DNA of 64,000 nucleotides. Source: Desertivirga arenae (GTDB lineage: Bacteria; Bacteroidota; Bacteroidia; Sphingobacteriales; Sphingobacteriaceae). Below are positions 26,301 to 35,583 of the stretch, one piece after another. The notes beneath the pieces were generated by a model, which made no database searches, was not told the DNA's origin, and saw only the letters and a list, made by a program, of their open reading frames with translations. Each line of letters opens with the position of its first letter. The stretch's first letter is position 1. Where the stretch lies: NCBI RefSeq assembly GCF_017355785.1, contig NZ_JAFEWE010000001.1:806001-870000 (forward strand). Reading direction: 5' to 3'. The translations under genes and the position numbers were made by a program.

Positions 26301-29300
26301 ATGCTAAAGAAATACGCACTTACTATAATATTACTTCAATCTTTAGTACTTAGCTCAAAGGCGCAGACCACCGAATGGTATACGTTAAATAATGCCTATA
26401 AGAGCGGAGTTGAGCTTTTTGAAAAACGGAAATTCGTTGCTGCAAGCGAACAGTTTAGCCGGGTTGAAGATTACCATACTATCCCCTCTACTCAACCCGT
26501 AGATAACCGACAGGTTTCTGTTCTTAAAGAAAGTGCTCAATTCTATATTGCCCGATGTGCCCTGGAACTTGGTAATACTAATGCTGAGGCACTGTTTCTG
26601 AAATTTATCCGGGAATACCCTACAAGTGCCCTTACCAAATCAGCCTACCTACAGCTAGGTAATTTCTACTTTGAAAAAAAGAATTATGAAAAAGCTTTAG
26701 ATTGGTATAAAGAGATTGATGCTAACAGTCTTACTGCGAACGAAAGCGAAGAATATCGGTTTAAACTGGCTTATTCCTATTTTACCTTAAAGAAGTATAC
26801 AGATGCTGAGCCTTTATTTGCAAAGTTAAAAGACGAAAAAGGGCCTTATAACGAATCCTCTATCTACTATTTCGCTTATCTAAATTATCTGGATGCAGAC
26901 TACACTACTGCCTTGAGAGAATTTGAAAGATTACAGGGAAGTACCACCTACAAAGCGAGTTATCCTTATTATATATCCGCACTATATTTCCTCAACAAGC
27001 GCTACGATGATGTAATCAGCTATACGATTCCGGCGATCGAATCAATAGATCAGCAGTTTAAAGCTGAAATGTATCGAATTGTGGCAGCTACATATTTTGC
27101 AAAGGCTGATTATAAGAACTCAATTAGCTACTATCAAAGGTTCCAAAATCTTGATAAAGGAGCTATCCAGAATAATCAGGATGATTACCAGATGGGATAT
27201 GCCTACCTGAAGCTTGGAGATCACAAAAAGGCAATAAAAGAACTTGAAAAACTTTCCACTACGGATGTATTCTATCAAAGCGGAATGATCACATTGGGAG
27301 AAGCTTTTATAAAAGACGGGAACAAACAAAGTGCAAGAAACGCATTTTTTAGGGCATCTAAACTCGACTTTGATCCACGCTTGAAAGAAGAAGGACTATT
27401 CAATTATGCAAAACTGTCTTATGAATTGGAGTTCCATTCCGTTGCTTTAGATGCCGTTCAGGAATTTATAAAGACCTATCCAAAGTCTACAAGAATAAAT
27501 GAGGCTAAAACTTTACTAGGACAAGTTTTACTTTCAACGAAGAACTATAAAGATGCTGTCTTCATCCTCGAGACGATCAATAATAAGAATGCTGAAACAA
27601 GAGGAGTATACCAGAGAGTGACCTATTTTCGAGGACTGGAGTTCTATAACGAAAGAGCCTTCGAAAATGCGATATCAATGTTCATCCGTTCTCAGAATAG
27701 TGCTGTAGATGATGAAATTGAAGCATTAGCTACATACTGGCTTGCTGAAGCTATGTTTGAGGTAAGAAAGTATGGTGAATCTGTCGGCCAATTTGAGAAA
27801 TTCCTGGGAATGCAGGCTGCGCGTAATACTGACGTTTATAATTACGCTAATTATGCACTTGGTTACTCAGCTTTTCAAAATGACAATTATAGCAAGGCGG
27901 CTACCTACTTCGAACGTTTTATTATTGGCGATGATAAAGATCGCAATACCATAAATGATGCTACCCTTCGACTCGCAGATTCTTATTTCGTAATTAAGAA
28001 CTATGACAAGGCTATGCAGCAATACAATAAGATCATTACCTGGAATGGTAAAGGCCAAGACTATGCACTTTTTCAGCGCGGCATGATCCAGGGTCTGCAG
28101 GGATCAAATGATCTGAAGATCGCAACACATCAGTCGCTATTGAAACAATTCCCTAACTCTAATTATGCAGATGATGCAGGTTTTGAGATGGCATATACTT
28201 ATTTCGTTAAAGGAGACTACGATAAAGCCCGTACTGATTTAACAAATTTAGTTGAGAAGTATCCAAGAAGCAGCTATGTCCCTAGAGCTCTTGTTACCAT
28301 TGGATTAGTTAACTACAACCAGGATAAGGATGAGGAAGCTCTAACCTACTTCAAACGTGTTGTTCAGGATTATTCAACTACAGACGAAGCTAAAATTGCG
28401 TTAGAGTCAATAAAGAACATCTACCTTGATAAAGGAAATGCTGATGAATTCCTGAACTATGCAAACTCAACAAGTATAGGAAACCTAAGTACAGCAGAAC
28501 AGGATAACATTACATTCCAGGCGGCTAATAATCGTTTTCTTAAGGGTGAATACCAAGGGGCTTACGAAGCCATAAATGCGTATTTTGATAAATTCAAGAA
28601 TCCAATTCACGAGAAACATGCGAAGTTTATCAGGGCTGAGAGCTTAGTAAAGCTTAATCGTCCCGATGAAGCGATCCCTGATTACAATGTGATATTGAAT
28701 GACTGGACCAGTGAGTTCACAGAGAGAGCTTTGATCAGTGTTTCTCAGCTTTATTTGAAACAAAAGAAATACAATGAAGCGGTTGCTTCTCTTAAAAAAC
28801 TTGAATTAACCTCAGAGTACAAAGCAAACTATAGCTATGCTGTTAATAATCTGATGGAAGCATACTATAACATGGGAATGAGCGATGAGACTCTGAAGTA
28901 TGTTGAGCTGATCAGAGCTTTCGATAAGGCTTCCACAGAAGACAAATACAGAGCTACTCTTTATTCAGGAAAGGCGCACATGTTAAAAGGCGACACCACA
29001 ACAGCTTATAAGGAATTTCAGGAGGTGTCAACTAAAACTACCACTGCATCCGGAGCAGAAGCCAAATATATGGTTGCTTTTGTTCAGCACCAGAATGGAG
29101 AGTATAAGGCTTCAGAGAAGACGATATATGAATTAAGCAATAAAATGCCTTCTCATGATTACTGGGTAGCAAAAGGCTTTTTGCTCTTGGCGGATAATTT
29201 CGTAGCCTTAAAAGATTCATTCTCTGCAAAAGCTACACTTCAAAGTTTAATTGACAACTATGAGGGTAACGATGAAATTATTCCTACAGCTAAAGAAAAA

Positions 29301-29327
29301 CTTAGCCAGTTAAACTCTAAGAAATAA
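26301..29327 (+). CDS. Large periplasmic TPR-repeat protein
   Basis: A 1008-residue secreted protein: signal peptide to about residue 21 (LVLSSKAQ) and then an almost unbroken solenoid of about 25 TPR-like units. Examples: YLQLGNFYFEKKNYEKALDW, FKLAYSYFTLKKYTDAEPLF, YWLAEAMFEVRKYGESVGQF and ALGYSAFQNDNYSKAATYFE. There is no catalytic motif; it should be a rigid scaffold in the periplasm or at the inner face of the outer membrane. It is the first gene of a six-gene run with a beta-barrel (4 bp downstream), a SPOR protein, ExbB, ExbD and a TonB-like protein, which suggests a joint envelope function (inference). Large TPR proteins of this type are widespread and mostly unstudied in Bacteroidota. 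Confidence 0.85.
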   Translation: MLKKYALTIILLQSLVLSSKAQTTEWYTLNNAYKSGVELFEKRKFVAASEQFSRVEDYHTIPSTQPVDNRQVSVLKESAQFYIARCALELGNTNAEALFLKFIREYPTSALTKSAYLQLGNFYFEKKNYEKALDWYKEIDANSLTANESEEYRFKLAYSYFTLKKYTDAEPLFAKLKDEKGPYNESSIYYFAYLNYLDADYTTALREFERLQGSTTYKASYPYYISALYFLNKRYDDVISYTIPAIESIDQQFKAEMYRIVAATYFAKADYKNSISYYQRFQNLDKGAIQNNQDDYQMGYAYLKLGDHKKAIKELEKLSTTDVFYQSGMITLGEAFIKDGNKQSARNAFFRASKLDFDPRLKEEGLFNYAKLSYELEFHSVALDAVQEFIKTYPKSTRINEAKTLLGQVLLSTKNYKDAVFILETINNKNAETRGVYQRVTYFRGLEFYNERAFENAISMFIRSQNSAVDDEIEALATYWLAEAMFEVRKYGESVGQFEKFLGMQAARNTDVYNYANYALGYSAFQNDNYSKAATYFERFIIGDDKDRNTINDATLRLADSYFVIKNYDKAMQQYNKIITWNGKGQDYALFQRGMIQGLQGSNDLKIATHQSLLKQFPNSNYADDAGFEMAYTYFVKGDYDKARTDLTNLVEKYPRSSYVPRALVTIGLVNYNQDKDEEALTYFKRVVQDYSTTDEAKIALESIKNIYLDKGNADEFLNYANSTSIGNLSTAEQDNITFQAANNRFLKGEYQGAYEAINAYFDKFKNPIHEKHAKFIRAESLVKLNRPDEAIPDYNVILNDWTSEFTERALISVSQLYLKQKKYNEAVASLKKLELTSEYKANYSYAVNNLMEAYYNMGMSDETLKYVELIRAFDKASTEDKYRATLYSGKAHMLKGDTTTAYKEFQEVSTKTTTASGAEAKYMVAFVQHQNGEYKASEKTIYELSNKMPSHDYWVAKGFLLLADNFVALKDSFSAKATLQSLIDNYEGNDEIIPTAKEKLSQLNSKK

Positions 29328-29331
29328 GACA

Positions 29332-31065
29332 ATGAAGTTTAGATATCTATCATATACCTTTTTCAGCCTGGTTTTAACTGTTGCAGCTAATGCTCAAACA
29401 AAACCAACTCAAGAAAACAAACCGTCTACGGAGAAAAAACCGACGACAAATACACCGCCAGAAAAAAAACCTTCTACAGAGCCTGCAAAGGGAACACTAA
29501 CGGAAGAAATAGATGTTGTAAGACCTTACAAACCTGTTTTAGCAGATGCTGCGAAGATCAGGAGAAGTCCGGATTTGAATAACTACAAGGTGTTTAAACC
29601 AAACTTGAGTTATCTCGTATTGGATAAGAGACTGGAATTGAATAGTGACATTACGCAGTTACAGGCACAACCTCTCCAGCAGGCAGCCCCTCTTCCCTTT
29701 GAGAATAACTATGCAAAAGCTGGGATAGGAAATTATTCATCGACGCTGGGAGAGGTATACCTAAACAACGGACCTGATGAGGCGCTCCAGTTAGGCTTTT
29801 TTGCAAAACACCTTGCCCAAAGTGGATCGCTGAACAAACAGAACTATTCAAGGCAGCAAGCTGCCTTGTTTGGTAAAAGCATTCAGGAGAAGATCACAAT
29901 CAATGGAGAGCTGAATTTCGACAGATTAGGATCCTATTTTTATGGAGTCAACCCCGAGATGGCCGACCAGAATCTGGATCCAAGGAAACAGCGTTTTGGT
30001 ACGGTAGGACTGAAAGGGGAATTACTGAAAAACTACGACCCTGAAAGCACTCTTGACTATGCGGTAAAGGCTGACGCCTATACCCTAAGCAGCAAGTACA
30101 ATTCAAAAGAAACCAGTTTTGCGCTGAGTGGATTCTTTAACGGGGTATGGAAACAGTTCAACCTTGGAGTTAACAGCTCTCTCGACTTTACCAGCACTAA
30201 GGATTCTTTAAATATTGGTAATCATATTTTCCGAGCGAACCCGTATATCAAGTTCCAGGGAAAAAACTATAAACTTTCATTAGGACTAAACTTCGTACAA
30301 GAATTCGGAACGGAGGCAAATACTAACCTCTTCCCTATCGCAACAGCAGAGCTTCCTTTAGTTCCTCAGTATGCTACTATTTTTGGTGGTTATACTGGAG
30401 ATGTTCTTAAATCTTCTCTCCGGGGTTTCGCTTTCGAAAATCCATATTTGGCAAAGAGCATTATCAATAATGCCGTTGAGAAGTCCAACTTATACGGAGG
30501 GGTGAAAGGTAACGCAGGAGCGGGATTCTCTTTTAAAGGGATGGTTTATTTTAAAACCATTGAGGATATGCCTCTCTATGTAAATAGCAAATATGGATTT
30601 GAACGTTTTGAACTAGCTTACGATAAGGCAAAGGTAGTAGGCCTGGAAGGAGAAGTAAATGTAAAAGCATCTGAAACTTTAACCTGGACAGGTAAGATAG
30701 AGGCTAATAAATACAACATGACAGATCAGGCGGAAGCTTGGTTGAAGCCTGGTTTAAAATTGTATTCAAACTTTCGTTTATCTCTCAAAAAGAAATTTAT
30801 AATTGACGGAGAGGTTGTTTATACGGGAGACAGAGATGCCTTCACCTATGACTATTCAAAAGGTATTCCCGCAAGTATTGAAAATTCAAGAGTGGTTGCA
30901 GTAAAAAGCTACCTTGATCTGAGCGGCGGTGCAGAATACCTCGTTAAGAATAAACTAGGAGTATTTTTAAAGGTGAATAACTTGTTCGGCAACAAATACC
31001 AGCAATACTTATACTATCCAAAATTAGGATTTAATGTAATTGGTGGGTTGAATTATTCATTCTGA
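29332..31065 (+). CDS. Outer-membrane beta-barrel with TonB-box-like N-terminus
   Basis: A 577-residue protein with a signal peptide (cut near AANA-Q), a Lys/Pro/Thr-rich linker (residues 22-55), then EEIDVVRPYKPVLADAAKI, which resembles a TonB box, and a C-terminal barrel with alternating strands (for example LGFFAKHLAQSGSLNKQNYS) that ends in aromatic GLNYSF as outer-membrane proteins do. I see no plug domain of about 130 residues as in true TonB-dependent receptors; the barrel starts about residue 120. It starts 4 bp after the TPR gene, so the two are tightly coupled. NCBI-style annotation would probably be 'TonB-dependent receptor' or hypothetical. Its ligand is unknown. Confidence 0.75.
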   Translation: MKFRYLSYTFFSLVLTVAANAQTKPTQENKPSTEKKPTTNTPPEKKPSTEPAKGTLTEEIDVVRPYKPVLADAAKIRRSPDLNNYKVFKPNLSYLVLDKRLELNSDITQLQAQPLQQAAPLPFENNYAKAGIGNYSSTLGEVYLNNGPDEALQLGFFAKHLAQSGSLNKQNYSRQQAALFGKSIQEKITINGELNFDRLGSYFYGVNPEMADQNLDPRKQRFGTVGLKGELLKNYDPESTLDYAVKADAYTLSSKYNSKETSFALSGFFNGVWKQFNLGVNSSLDFTSTKDSLNIGNHIFRANPYIKFQGKNYKLSLGLNFVQEFGTEANTNLFPIATAELPLVPQYATIFGGYTGDVLKSSLRGFAFENPYLAKSIINNAVEKSNLYGGVKGNAGAGFSFKGMVYFKTIEDMPLYVNSKYGFERFELAYDKAKVVGLEGEVNVKASETLTWTGKIEANKYNMTDQAEAWLKPGLKLYSNFRLSLKKKFIIDGEVVYTGDRDAFTYDYSKGIPASIENSRVVAVKSYLDLSGGAEYLVKNKLGVFLKVNNLFGNKYQQYLYYPKLGFNVIGGLNYSF

Positions 31066-31105
31066 TAGTTTTGGCCTAATTATTTTTTCGTTTAATTTTA
31101 CCCAG

Positions 31106-32254
31106 ATGGATGTTGGTGTTTATGTAGCCGAATTACTTCAGAGGATTGATGAGGTAAGTCTCTCTGGAATTGGTACATTTTATAAAAAAAGAACTTCGGC
31201 TTATCATGACAATAAGCAAGGGATCTTTTTTCCCCCATCGGAAGAGTACGCATTTGATCCAGCACGCCAGGACTCTGGTTTTGCTCTAGTGGAGTATGTG
31301 TGTGCAGTTCGTAATATTTCCGAACCTTCAGCTCGTTATTTTATTGAAAAATATATAGACTCGATAAAGCAGTCCATACAGATAAAGGGCTATGCCACTA
31401 TTGATTCTCTGGGGAAGTTACGATCATCTAATAACAGCTATATTCTTGAGCCGGCCGAGTTTGCAAATAGCTCAATCAGCTACGGATTGATCCCGGTAAT
31501 GGAAATAGAACGAAAAGCTAAAAAGATCAATAATTCGAACGAACCTGACTTTTCTGCGATTCGAATTAAGTCCCCCGCACCAACTGTACAAGATGCTCCT
31601 CCTCAGGCTGTGCATAAAGAGAGCAAAGAGCCTCAGGAAAAATCGAATAAGTCTGCAATTCTTATTGTAATTACTTTTCTTGCTCTGGGCGCTGCCCTTG
31701 TGGCTGGTTATTTCCTATACCCTAAATTCTTCCGGCAAAAAGATCAGAACACTGTAATTGTTCCTGTTACAAAAACTACTAATCCGCCTCAGAGGAAATT
31801 GGACTCTGCACAAACTGCATCAAATAAAGAACTTGTAAACTCTGAGGCCGCTGCCGATAGCTTATTCGAAAATAGCATGACGCAGCTAAATCAAGAAAAG
31901 GGTATAACAGTAGAAAAACCAAGAGACACCGTGGTTATCACTACTAAAACTACCCCTTTAAGGAAAACAAAAGATTCAACTTCGACAGCAGTCCTTCCAC
32001 CTTCGCCATCTTCTGCTATAAAGTTTGAAGTAATTGTGGCGGCATTTAATAAACAATCAGAAGCAGAGGACTACATCTCTCAATTGAGAAAGAAAGGGAT
32101 TGATGCCAAAGTTGTAAACGATATTAGAAAACCGAAATTTAAAATAAGCACAGGTACTTTCGCGAACGAAGAATCCGCACAAAAAGAGAGACGCCGTCTT
32201 CGTGAGACTAAAATAGGTCAGGATGCCTGGGTTTTTACCGTTAAAAACAAATAA
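31106..32254 (+). CDS. HU-CCDC81-like / TM / SPOR-domain protein
   Basis: A 382-residue inner-membrane protein. Residues 1-125 look like the bacterial CCDC81-type HU-like tandem domain found in Bacteroidota (VYVAELLQRIDEVSLSGIGT, EYAFDPARQDSGFALVEYV); a single membrane helix follows at about 182-204 (ILIVITFLALGAALVAGYFL), then a Pro/Thr/Ser-rich linker, and a C-terminal SPOR domain from about 305 (FEVIVAAFNKQSEAEDYISQL). SPOR domains bind peptidoglycan strands lacking stem peptides, mostly at the septum; HU-like domains may bind DNA in the cytoplasm. The family has been proposed to link nucleoid and cell wall. It lies between the barrel and exbB. Confidence 0.82.
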   Translation: MDVGVYVAELLQRIDEVSLSGIGTFYKKRTSAYHDNKQGIFFPPSEEYAFDPARQDSGFALVEYVCAVRNISEPSARYFIEKYIDSIKQSIQIKGYATIDSLGKLRSSNNSYILEPAEFANSSISYGLIPVMEIERKAKKINNSNEPDFSAIRIKSPAPTVQDAPPQAVHKESKEPQEKSNKSAILIVITFLALGAALVAGYFLYPKFFRQKDQNTVIVPVTKTTNPPQRKLDSAQTASNKELVNSEAAADSLFENSMTQLNQEKGITVEKPRDTVVITTKTTPLRKTKDSTSTAVLPPSPSSAIKFEVIVAAFNKQSEAEDYISQLRKKGIDAKVVNDIRKPKFKISTGTFANEESAQKERRRLRETKIGQDAWVFTVKNK

Positions 32255-32260
32255 ACACAC

Positions 32261-32950
32261 ATGATTCTACTACAAGATACTGTTTTACCAGATACCGTTG
32301 CCAGGGCAACGCAAGCAGTACAGACAACGCAAGACCTACGTTTTATTGATCTATTAGTAAAGGGTGGATGGGTAATGATTCCTCTTGGAATCCTTTTGTT
32401 CCTTGCCTTAGTGATCTTTATAGAGCGCTATCTCACTATAAGGAAAGCGGCTAAAGATGAAGCCAATTTGTTAGTTCAGGTTAAACAGCATATTCTTTCT
32501 GGCAATCTTGATTCAGCTACCGCTATTTGTCGCAACAGTAATTCTCCCTTAGGCAGGATGCTACAAAAAGGTCTTTTACGAATAGGGAGACCAATAAAAG
32601 ACATCGAGGGGGCTATTGAAAACATTGGAAAACTTGAAGTATCTAAACTGGAAAAGAATGTAAGTATTCTGGGTATTGTTGCTGGTATTGCTCCAATGCT
32701 CGGCTTCGTAGGTACTATCGCTGGTGTGATCCGTATCTTTTATAATATTGCACAGACTGATAATATCAGTATGGGGCTTATCGCTGATGGTCTATATCAA
32801 AAGATGATCACTTCCGCTGCTGGTTTAATGATTGGTATATTAGCTTATGTTGGCTATCATGTGCTAAACATTATGGTTGACAAGGTAATTTTGAAGCTAG
32901 AGACTGATGCTGTTGAATTTATTGATCTGCTGGAACAACCAGGTAGATAA
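32261..32950 (+). CDS. exbB: ExbB/TolQ/MotA-family proton channel subunit
   Basis: A 229-residue inner-membrane protein with three membrane helices: about residues 30-53 (GWVMIPLGILLFLALVIFIE), 135-160 (ILGIVAGIAPMLGFVGTIAG) and 175-200 (SAAGLMIGILAYVGYHVL). The LGFVGTIAGVIRIF segment and small residues of helices 2-3 are the family signature of the pentameric channel that converts proton flow into motion of a TonB or TolA partner. Starts 6 bp after the SPOR gene and is followed by exbD and a TonB-like gene, so the energising complex is complete here. Confidence 0.93.
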   Translation: MILLQDTVLPDTVARATQAVQTTQDLRFIDLLVKGGWVMIPLGILLFLALVIFIERYLTIRKAAKDEANLLVQVKQHILSGNLDSATAICRNSNSPLGRMLQKGLLRIGRPIKDIEGAIENIGKLEVSKLEKNVSILGIVAGIAPMLGFVGTIAGVIRIFYNIAQTDNISMGLIADGLYQKMITSAAGLMIGILAYVGYHVLNIMVDKVILKLETDAVEFIDLLEQPGR

Positions 32951-33057
32951 AACATGAATAAGTCTCAGTTTTAACAAATTAATTTATGGAATTTGCCAGA
33001 TCTTGAATCTGAATAATAAAAGGTCTGGCAGGTGAACAAACAGCTTAAATAGCAACA

Positions 33058-33453
33058 ATGAACTTAAGAAGAAGAAATCGTCCTCATGCAGAAGTTCATA
33101 CTTCGGCAATGAATGACATCATGTTTTTCCTGATGCTGTTTTTTCTTATTGCTTCAACTGTAACAAATCCTAACGTAATAAAACTAATGCTGCCAAAGTC
33201 TGCTTCGGGACAATCAGTTTCTAAAAAAACCGTTAGTATAGCAATAAATCAGAACTTAGAATACTTCCTTGATAAGCAGCCTGTAAAGCTGGAAGAGATC
33301 CAGCCGAAACTCGCTTCTTATCTGCAACAAGCTAAAGAGCTTACAATTGTTCTTTCTGTTGATAGAACAGTAGCAATACAAGATGTAGTAGCAATTATGG
33401 ACATTGCGAACAAAATGGGAATTAAACTTGTACTGGCAACAGAACCGAAATAG
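33058..33453 (+). CDS. exbD: ExbD/TolR-family protein
   Basis: A 131-residue protein with one membrane helix (about 20-38, DIMFFLMLFFLIASTVTNP) and a periplasmic ExbD/TolR domain (GQSVSKKTVSIAINQNLEYF, VDRTVAIQDVVAIMDIANKM). Asp20 at the cytoplasmic edge of the helix is in the position of the proton-carrying Asp of E. coli ExbD. Many Bacteroidota TonB operons have two exbD genes; here there is one. A 107-bp gap separates it from exbB and contains no obvious terminator. Confidence 0.93.
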   Translation: MNLRRRNRPHAEVHTSAMNDIMFFLMLFFLIASTVTNPNVIKLMLPKSASGQSVSKKTVSIAINQNLEYFLDKQPVKLEEIQPKLASYLQQAKELTIVLSVDRTVAIQDVVAIMDIANKMGIKLVLATEPK

Positions 33454-33459
33454 AGCGTT

Positions 33460-34278
33460 ATGCAGTACCGTGAAGAAAATAATTATCCAAAAGCGCTCCT
33501 CTTCTCCGGGGGCGCAATGATCCTATTTTTAGTGATCAGTTATCTGATTACATTTGGAACAAATCTTCCGATAGAGGAAGTGGGTACAGGTGGCATTGTT
33601 GTAAATTACGGTACGTCGGAAACAGGAATGGGAGACGACCTTATGAGTGTTGAAGAACCTTCTGTTGCTCCAAACGCAAATAATACAGCACCCGATAAAA
33701 TTGTAACTTCAGAGCCTACAGAAAGTACGCCAACAACCGAAGCGACCGACAAAACTGTAGTTACCCAGGATATCGAAGATGCCCCTGTTGTAGCCACTGC
33801 TAAAAAAACAACAAGCTCTACTCCTACCGCCTCTACGCCAGCGAAAGAATCAAAACCAAGTGTTAATCCTAATGCCTTGTATAAAGGTAAAAGGAATGAC
33901 GGAAATGGCGGGGGCGATGGAAATGATGGCACTCCAGGCAACAAAGGAGATGTAGACGGAGATCCGATGGCAAGTAATTATGGCAAAGGTGGTTCGGGTT
34001 TTGGCAATACACAATTATCATTAGTTGGAAGAAAATTTGTAAGCGTTCCTCGGATATCTGACGATGGACAAAGTTCGGGAAAGGTTGCAGTAGAAATTCG
34101 AGTGGACAAAAATGGTACGGTAGTTTTTGCTCGTGGAGGAGTACGTGGGACAACAATATCTGATAAAGATCTTTGGGCTAAATGTGAACAAGCAGTAAGA
34201 GGTGCCAGCCTTAACCGTCTTGAATCGGCTCCAGATGTCCAAATAGGTACCGTTATTTTTAACTTCAAAGTAGATTAG
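33460..34278 (+). CDS. Divergent TonB-like energy transducer
   Basis: A 272-residue protein: cytoplasmic start, one membrane helix at about residues 12-33 (ALLFSGGAMILFLVISYLIT), a Thr/Pro/Glu-rich periplasmic linker (60-145), a Gly/Asp/Asn-rich hinge (about 148-190), and a C-terminal TonB-like domain (GRKFVSVPRISDDGQSSGKV, then AVEIRVDKNGTVVFARGG). The usual YP motif of TonB is replaced by VPRI, so it belongs to a divergent branch. It should transmit ExbB-ExbD energy to an outer-membrane partner, most simply the barrel encoded upstream (inference). 6 bp after exbD; ends 15 bp before folC. Confidence 0.82.
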   Translation: MQYREENNYPKALLFSGGAMILFLVISYLITFGTNLPIEEVGTGGIVVNYGTSETGMGDDLMSVEEPSVAPNANNTAPDKIVTSEPTESTPTTEATDKTVVTQDIEDAPVVATAKKTTSSTPTASTPAKESKPSVNPNALYKGKRNDGNGGGDGNDGTPGNKGDVDGDPMASNYGKGGSGFGNTQLSLVGRKFVSVPRISDDGQSSGKVAVEIRVDKNGTVVFARGGVRGTTISDKDLWAKCEQAVRGASLNRLESAPDVQIGTVIFNFKVD

Positions 34279-34293
34279 TCTTTTTCATCCTTG

Positions 34294-35583
34294 ATGACAT
34301 ATACTGATACGATCGATTACCTTTATTCCAGATTGCCAATGTTTACTAAAATAGGCGCATCTGCAATAAAGAAAGATCTTACCAACACTCTAGCACTTTG
34401 TAAAGTGCTGGGAAATCCATATAAAAAATTTAAGACGATTCACATTGCAGGAACAAATGGGAAAGGCTCAGTTTCTCATATGCTGGCCGCCATCCTCGAG
34501 GTAGCAGGGTATAAGACTGGACTTTATACATCTCCTCACCTCAGGGACTTCAGGGAAAGGATCCGTATTAACGGAGAAATGATCCCAGAGGAGGATGTTG
34601 TGAAATTTGTTACTTCCCAACAAGGGTCTATTGAGGCTATCGAGCCCTCTTTTTTTGAAGTTACGGTAGCGATGGCATTTGATTATTTTGCATCTCAGCG
34701 GGTAGACATAGCGGTAATAGAAACAGGTTTGGGTGGACGTTTAGATTCTACAAATGTAATTACACCAATTCTCTCCGTAATCACCAATATTGGTTACGAT
34801 CACATGAATATTCTCGGAGATACTTTGAAGGAAATCGCTTCAGAAAAAGCAGGTATTATCAAATCAACAGTTCCGGTAGTAATAAGTGAACGGCAGGAAG
34901 AAATAGAGGAGGTCTTTCTAAACAAAGCGAAAGATACAGATTCGGAACTGCATTTTGGCTCAGATGAATGGGCTATTACAGAATTGGAATCAGATGCAAG
35001 AATTAAAAAAATTGAAGCAATTTCCTTGCCTGGAAAGCTTGAGCACTTACAAATAGAATTAGATTTAACTGGTACCTATCAATTAAAGAATATAAAAGGA
35101 GTTTTAAGCAGTGTCTCCATACTAAGAACTCAAGGATTAGAAATCCGAACCGAGCATATTAAGCAAGCTTTGAAAACTGTGCAAGAAATAACGGGCTTGC
35201 AAGGACGATGGCAGACCATTGGAAGAGACCCTTTAATAATTTGTGATACAGGTCATAATGAAGACGGAATTAGGGAGGTTCTGAAGAACATTAATACTAT
35301 TTCTTTTACCAACCTTCACATGGTAATCGGAATGGTGAAGGATAAAGATAGTTCAACAGTACTGTCTCTGTTGCCTAAAGACGCTATCTACTATTTCTGT
35401 GCACCGGAACTTCCGCGAGCTAAACCGGCAGACGAACTAGCCTCTGAAGCCTCTAAGCTTAATTTAAAAGGAGAAGTTTTTTCATCGGTAAAAGATGCTT
35501 TAGCTACAGCAAAACAACGAGCAGAGAAAAATGACCTTGTTTTTGTTGGTGGCAGTACCTTCGTAGTTGCAGAAGTAATCTAA
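34294..35583 (+). CDS. folC: Bifunctional folylpolyglutamate synthase/dihydrofolate synthase
   Basis: About 429 residues from the ATG at 34294; the preceding TTG is in frame but less likely. A Mur-ligase-type ATP enzyme that adds glutamate to folates. Signatures: P-loop IAGTNGKGSVSHMLAA at about 48-63, SPHLRDFRERIRING (folate-binding omega loop), ETGLGGRLDSTNV, and ITNIGYDHMNILGDTLKEIASEKAGI. Its location at the end of the TonB/Exb run is probably a read-through arrangement rather than a functional link. About 200 bp without genes follow. Confidence 0.95.
   Translation: MTYTDTIDYLYSRLPMFTKIGASAIKKDLTNTLALCKVLGNPYKKFKTIHIAGTNGKGSVSHMLAAILEVAGYKTGLYTSPHLRDFRERIRINGEMIPEEDVVKFVTSQQGSIEAIEPSFFEVTVAMAFDYFASQRVDIAVIETGLGGRLDSTNVITPILSVITNIGYDHMNILGDTLKEIASEKAGIIKSTVPVVISERQEEIEEVFLNKAKDTDSELHFGSDEWAITELESDARIKKIEAISLPGKLEHLQIELDLTGTYQLKNIKGVLSSVSILRTQGLEIRTEHIKQALKTVQEITGLQGRWQTIGRDPLIICDTGHNEDGIREVLKNINTISFTNLHMVIGMVKDKDSSTVLSLLPKDAIYYFCAPELPRAKPADELASEASKLNLKGEVFSSVKDALATAKQRAEKNDLVFVGGSTFVVAEVI

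Follow-up and report, generated by a model that had tools for sequence, protein, structure and literature searches.

What kind of work would a TonB-type motor perform beside an outer-membrane barrel that seems to have no plug? The question is raised by six consecutive genes in the genome of Desertivirga arenae (Bacteroidota; Bacteroidia; Sphingobacteriaceae), which encode a tetratricopeptide repeat (TPR) protein, a barrel protein, an HU/SPOR protein, ExbB, ExbD, and a TonB-like protein (Table 1). They lie in the window analyzed here, a stretch of 64,000 nucleotides (positions 806,001 to 870,000 of contig NZ_JAFEWE010000001.1, assembly GCF_017355785.1). We found that this set of modules is real and ancient and that it likely forms a motor-linked, plugless TonB-dependent transporter (TBDT) system. 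As for its task, a Tol-like job at the outer membrane is our best single guess, and a tentative one.

All six open reading frames (ORFs) are on the plus strand within positions 26301 to 34278, separated by gaps of 4, 40, 6, 107, and 6 bp in the ORF list, in exact agreement with an earlier note on this DNA, which had been made from the letters alone. The parts that the note named, i.e., a plugless barrel, a TPR scaffold, an HU-like/SPOR protein, and a complete ExbB-ExbD-TonB-like motor, are backed by the family profiles and predicted structures described below.

The barrel, its partners, and the motor

The barrel protein alone gave no Pfam match at an E value of ≤0.1, and a profile of its family (A2, 66 sequences) matched PDB entries of PfeA and FpvA, in their C-terminal parts, with an E value of about 1e-8. 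In the AlphaFold2 model (mean predicted local distance difference test [pLDDT], 82.2), the strands span residues 127 to 576 and were counted as 22, while residues 22 to 123 have a pLDDT of <50 and no confident fold. The best Foldseek matches of the model were BtuB and FpvA, and VIA aligned it with FhuA at a Z score of 21.9 over 438 residues (root mean square deviation [rmsd], 3.5), with BtuB tied. At an E value of ≤0.01, none of the 66 family members matched the Pfam plug family and three matched the Pfam TBDT barrel family. Judging from the predicted structure, the protein is likely a 22-strand TBDT barrel without a plug.

Within the low-confidence N-terminal region, we identified a conserved peptide. 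The mean information over the 66 sequences was 1.55 bits for residues 56 to 83, against 0.35 for residues 23 to 55, 1.02 for residues 84 to 124, and 1.36 for residues 125 to 577; information peaks over the C-terminal strands, where the best windows reach 2.28. The peptide shows a TonB-box-like alternation, I60-x-V62, followed by Y66, K75, and P80. By weight, position 60 is I or V in 87% and position 62 in 95% of the sequences; position 66 is mostly Y or F, position 75 is always K or R, and position 94 is always Y or F. Conserved yet predicted to be disordered, residues 56 to 83 match the expectation for a docking peptide.

The same peptide occurs in a second setting. In 10 of 61 genomes of the family to which D. 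arenae belongs, chimeric ORFs (loci L023 to L032) join the barrel signal peptide and the conserved peptide to positions of about 250 to 1005 of the TPR model, and one of them (L031:5496-7982, genome G003) lies inside the operon, between the TPR and barrel genes. Tandem duplication would explain the origin of these chimeras. Pairwise identities among the ten copies are 60.5 to 88.5%, which implies long retention.

The TPR protein has an N-terminal signal peptide, and no lipobox Cys was seen in it, both by sequence inspection. It scored 136.6 bits with Pfam TPR_6. Its score with the YbgF/CpoB model TIGR02795 (181.7 bits) is above the cut-off but is spread over seven stretches, as for generic TPR, and hence was not used to identify the protein as CpoB. 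The BamD-type model TIGR03302 gave 112.9 bits (cut-off, 81.4). This match, together with the pairing of a long TPR solenoid with a barrel, would suit a motor-powered machine for outer-membrane biogenesis, i.e., for the assembly of surface lipoproteins or outer-membrane proteins, in which the TPR protein serves as a periplasmic chaperone. However, the BamD-type score is scattered over six stretches of a repeat protein, and a paper on the Flavobacterium johnsoniae β-barrel assembly machinery names BamA, BamD, BamG, BamH, BamM, and BamP, with the words TPR and tetratricopeptide absent from its text (PMC12611786). We regard a biogenesis machine as improbable, the least probable of the explanations considered here.

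The product of the third gene scored above the curated cut-offs (in parentheses) of SPOR, at 45.9 bits (21), HU-CCDC81_bac_2, at 42.4 bits (35), and HU-CCDC81_bac_1, at 30.5 bits (26), and it has a transmembrane segment at about residues 183 to 205 by sequence inspection. Its domains are thus those of known families (PF18174, PF18175, and PF05036), to which the block adds a conserved context with a barrel, a TPR protein, and a motor. Several families outside the class have instead a SPOR gene with one HU domain and, in front of it, a small HU-like ORF with weak profile scores (L162:8692-8898, L166:8475-8750, and L168:9523-9741), whereas the window protein has both HU domains.

Both membrane subunits of the motor are clear, at 76.3 bits for Pfam MotA_ExbB (cut-off, 22.9) and 95.2 bits for ExbD (cut-off, 25.4). 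Asp20 of ExbD aligns with Asp25 of Escherichia coli ExbD, so that the motor Asp is kept. Thr152 of ExbB aligns with Thr148 of the E. coli protein, and the positions of E. coli Thr181 and Glu176 are occupied by Ser and Gln. The TonB-like protein alone gave no Pfam match at an E value of ≤0.1, and PF03544 was found in 12 of 33 relatives. It is predicted to consist of a transmembrane helix (residues 9 to 33), a low-confidence linker, and a C-terminal domain (about residues 189 to 272). Its family profile matched TonB in the PDB at an E value of 9.5e-6, and VIA aligned the C-terminal domain with TonB at a Z score of 8.6 (76 residues; rmsd, 2.2); Foldseek on the model gave no match below 0.001. A juxtamembrane stretch at about residues 45 to 62 (GIxVNYG / YIEVNFG), with a conserved terminal Gly, is common to the 33 aligned proteins and, from its sequence, is perhaps an ExbD-binding strand.

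The genome has two MotA/ExbB matches, the block ExbB and that of locus L001, where two ExbD genes come after ExbB; the block motor is therefore not the only Ton-type motor of the genome. Exactly two such matches were found in 98 of 109 genomes of the class, one match in one genome, three in nine, and four in one. In a tree of 48 rows, of which those of E. coli, L181, L182, and L193 were flagged as long branches, 25 block ExbBs grouped with L182, a flavobacterial split-off (98/88). Branches of 100/99 separate this group both from the general Ton ExbBs (15 of 16) and from the TolQ proteins of family f18 and E. coli, with E. coli ExbB falling with TolQ. Monophyly of the 25 block ExbBs without L182 is weak (79/46).

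Distribution and gene order

The barrel was found in all 61 genomes of its own family and, at an E value of ≤1e-20, in 104 of the 109 class genomes (by C-terminal matches only in G474, G500, and G521), the other five (G466, G471, G479, G497, and G498) having weaker matches. Across the phylum, barrel profile A1 matched 184 of 392 genomes, and the wider profile A2 matched 190 of 198 genomes at an E value of ≤0.001. In family f18, the best A2 match was only 7.6e-17, and the matches listed for it are C-terminal pieces of frames of at least 630 amino acids (aa).

At 46 of 80 named loci, the gene order is pyrR-pyrB-TPR-barrel-HU/SPOR-ExbB-ExbD-TonB-folC, as in the window, where pyrR and pyrB lie upstream of the block and the codirectional folC begins 12 bp past the TonB-like gene. 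The named loci closest to the window are those of Desertivirga and Pedobacter. No HU/SPOR gene was found near the barrel at 20 of the 80 loci, at 4 of them because the sequence stops about 1.3 kb or less from the barrel. folC is motor-linked in many lineages, although with no obvious functional link, and probably stands outside the machine.

We further tallied gene order at 107 distinct loci from 66 families (15 outside the class) after removal of duplicates, with the loci that had enough sequence as denominators. The loci were picked by barrel or HU matches, barrel-less ones (L246, L247, and HU-only loci) being left out, and divergent TonBs are probably undercounted. The TPR gene adjoins the barrel gene at 93 of 105 loci and in 57 of 64 families, which is far beyond chance and rules out a chance neighborhood. 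HU/SPOR is near the barrel at 54 of 104 loci, ExbD at 30 of 95, and TonB at 29 of 95. The order TPR-barrel-HU/SPOR-ExbB-ExbD was found at 22 of 93 loci in 12 families, and the complete six-gene order was seen at 13 of 93 loci, which belong to six families (f1, f8, f9, f17, f21, and f76), two of them outside the class. The neighborhood to which the earlier note had drawn attention is thus conserved far outside close relatives.

Around 20 short ExbB genes, ExbD was adjacent in all 20 cases, TonB was found in 19, folC in 14, and HU/SPOR in 3. In family f24, the TPR gene is unlinked from the barrel gene, yet it is full-length in 8 of 8 genomes. This pattern indicates two modules, one of TPR and barrel and the other of motor and folC, which are linked or separate depending on the lineage. 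At eight loci in seven families (L252, L253, L254, L255, L256, L235, L116, and L122), a TonB-like gene is near the barrel with no ExbB nearby, so that the transducer stays and the motor is elsewhere.

Presence of the TPR and barrel genes was compared in 40 chosen genomes. A full-length TPR gene was found in 13, of which 12 have a full-length barrel. The exception, G497, carries HU/SPOR-ExbB-ExbD-TonB-folC-TPR in a row with no recognizable barrel (L262:6669-14326). In G219, both TPR and barrel are divergent, and none of the remaining 26 genomes, which include G479 with a TPR fragment at a contig end, has a full-length barrel.

Table 1. Coordinates of the six-gene block, its subfeatures, and folC in the window
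Feature	Position	Strand	Basis
TPR solenoid protein, 1008 aa	26301..29327	+	TPR repeats
Plugless TBDT-type outer-membrane barrel (likely), 577 aa	29332..31065	+	Family profile, predicted structure
Conserved N-terminal barrel peptide, residues 56-83, predicted disordered	29497..29580	+	Alignment, AlphaFold2
Barrel domain, residues 127-577, 22 predicted strands by count	29710..31062	+	Predicted structure
HU-CCDC81 x2 - transmembrane - SPOR protein, 382 aa	31106..32254	+	Pfam
SPOR domain, residues 306-377	32021..32236	+	Pfam
ExbB/TolQ-type motor subunit, 229 aa	32261..32950	+	Pfam, tree
ExbD/TolR-type motor subunit, 131 aa	33058..33453	+	Pfam, alignment
TonB-like force transducer, 272 aa	33460..34278	+	Profile, predicted structure
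folC, codirectional neighbor	34291..35583	+	Motor-linked in many lineages

Relation to Tol-Pal, Ton, and other systems

With the Ton system, the block shares ExbB, ExbD, a TonB-type C-terminal domain, and the predicted 22-strand TBDT barrel; it differs in that the barrel has no plug and is encoded beside a giant TPR protein and in that its ExbB is apart from the general Bacteroidota Ton motor. With Tol-Pal (TolQRA-TolB-Pal-CpoB), it shares the gene order ExbB/TolQ-ExbD/TolR-TonB/TolA, a second motor beside the Ton motor, a TPR partner, and a domain of peptidoglycan-binding type. However, the block motor does not group with TolQ, and in place of TolB and Pal the block has an outer-membrane barrel and a SPOR protein; plain membership in Tol-Pal was rejected on the grouping of the motor and on the finding of no more than partial TolB matches in the genome. 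The type 9 secretion motor (GldLM/PorLM) with PorW/SprE likewise combines a proton motor with a long TPR protein in Bacteroidota, and it was set aside because no GldL or GldM match was among the NCBIfam matches and the TPR protein reached 58.8 bits with the PorW/SprE model (cut-off, 250). SusCD was discarded because the barrel family has no plug match and none of the six block proteins showed a SusD family match. By title or abstract start, we found no description of the six-gene block in the open-access literature, and an earlier description is possible.

Taken together, we consider it plausible, if short of probable, that Bacteroidota have in this block a third type of force-transducing machine, beside Ton and Tol, with a Tol-like role at the outer membrane. 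A 2025 survey states that Bacteroidetes have no identifiable tol-pal loci and that other systems stabilizing the outer membrane are expected to emerge (PMC12204202). In family f18, locus L175 is a canonical tolQRAB-pal-cpoB operon. In the D. arenae genome, the TolB models gave no match (PF04052) or only partial ones (TIGR02800; best score, 89.6 bits; cut-off, 343.15). A comparison of 80 genomes found TolB at full length in all 43 from f18, with 41 scoring over the curated cut-off and 2 slightly under it, and in none of the 37 from elsewhere; the full-length barrel was found in 0 of 43 and 24 of 37, respectively, and none of the 80 genomes has both. As to Pal, none is in the block, and no genome-wide search for it was made. 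In a wider set of 198 genomes, TolB_N was matched in nine, five of f18 and four barrel-bearing.

Several observations weigh against this interpretation. The complementarity with TolB rests on the single family f18 and may thus reflect one or a few events, and 13 of the 80 genomes have neither a full-length barrel nor TolB, although G219 among them has the divergent TPR-barrel pair. The four barrel-bearing genomes that match TolB_N (G106, G143, G191, and G231, all outside the 80-genome comparison) do so in frames of 326 to 1093 aa (E values, 3e-7 to 7e-4), with three of the four exceeding the cut-off, and a control, Bacteroides ihuae, also has a match; from their sequences, these are perhaps fused or divergent TolB-like proteins. 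Besides, profile searches found neither the TPR protein nor a full-length barrel in two complete single-contig class genomes (G322 and G425). The motor does not descend from TolQ, since the tree separates the two and block ExbB scored 67.2 bits with TIGR02796 (cut-off, 221), a model with which the f18 TolQ control reached 255.4 bits. The C-terminal model of the TonB-like protein also fits TolA, almost as well as TonB (VIA Z score, 7.2). Furthermore, another protein of the same phylum is already a candidate for a Tol-like role: PorE, described as a CpoB-TolB-Pal-like fusion, is a proposed Bacteroidetes tether (PMC12204202). PorE differs from the block proteins in being an outer-membrane lipoprotein with an OmpA-like domain encoded outside the block; section 10 of that survey describes no barrel-SPOR-motor block, and the word SPOR is absent from its main text.

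Two further points on the same side concern the motor. At only 31 of 99 loci was ExbB found within 5 kb of the barrel gene, so that the suggestion of the earlier note, a motor that energizes a single dedicated outer-membrane protein, draws its support from the lineages that keep motor and barrel together. In Riemerella anatipestifer, exbB-exbD-tonB1 (24, 14.7, and 30.6 kDa) can be deleted, acts in hemin uptake redundantly with TonB2, and forms a complex that energizes an outer-membrane hemin receptor in E. coli (PMC4446302). By its size and single exbD, this system looks like the counterpart of the block motor, with orthology suggested by the L182 arrangement. These data and the frequent separation of motor and barrel would fit a second Ton system of the ordinary kind that serves nutrient receptors, the TPR, barrel, and SPOR genes being neighbors for historical reasons only. 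We judge this explanation rather unlikely, only slightly less so than biogenesis, because the genome has the separate ExbB-ExbD-ExbD locus, the block ExbB groups apart, families beyond the class retain the gene order, and TonB stands by the barrel without ExbB at eight loci. The note's suggestion that the block is not a general nutrient TonB system is challenged by the Riemerella data if that system is the counterpart.

A possible mechanism and its meaning

If the Tol-like reading is correct, the TonB-type C-terminal domain would dock on the barrel peptide by strand addition, in the manner of TonB on a TonB box. Since the barrel lacks a plug that could be unfolded, the pulling force would reach the barrel itself and hence the outer membrane. 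As the partner of the barrel, the TPR protein may seal or organize it, and the SPOR domain would set the assembly at septal peptidoglycan; septal action, which the earlier note raised as a possibility, is suggested solely by the SPOR domain. In lineages that lack canonical TolB, the machine would thus tether and constrict the outer membrane much as Tol does. In its most specific form, the proposal is that the block is the missing Tol equivalent of Bacteroidota, in which a TBDT has lost its plug and turned into an outer-membrane anchor, the outer membrane itself is what a TonB-type motor of its own pulls on, a SPOR protein guides the assembly to the septum, and cytoplasmic HU domains might sense the chromosome. 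This full version is on the unlikely side.

The same parts could alternatively form a dedicated energized pore. Here the barrel would be a gated channel, its stopper would be the TPR protein in trans or barrel residues 22 to 123, and the TonB-like protein would open it for import or export of one substrate class. The transporter fold of the barrel is consistent with this, as are the likely need of an open 22-strand pore for a stopper and the finding that the TPR gene is the most constant neighbor of the barrel. However, the recurrent neighbors are pyrR, pyrB, HU/SPOR, the motor, and folC, none of which encodes a substrate-binding protein or an inner-membrane transporter (scoring was limited to these families, and others were read at few loci); moreover, a transport system would be an unusual setting for an HU/SPOR protein, and the wide distribution suits housekeeping. 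We thus consider an energized pore somewhat unlikely, as much so as the full version of the Tol-like proposal.

The Tol-like reading, tentative as it is, has a practical side. The block is near-universal in the class sample and offers a concrete Tol-like candidate, in which the putative docking peptide is a defined target for mutation. If the reading is true, the block shows a nutrient transporter turned into a mechanical part.

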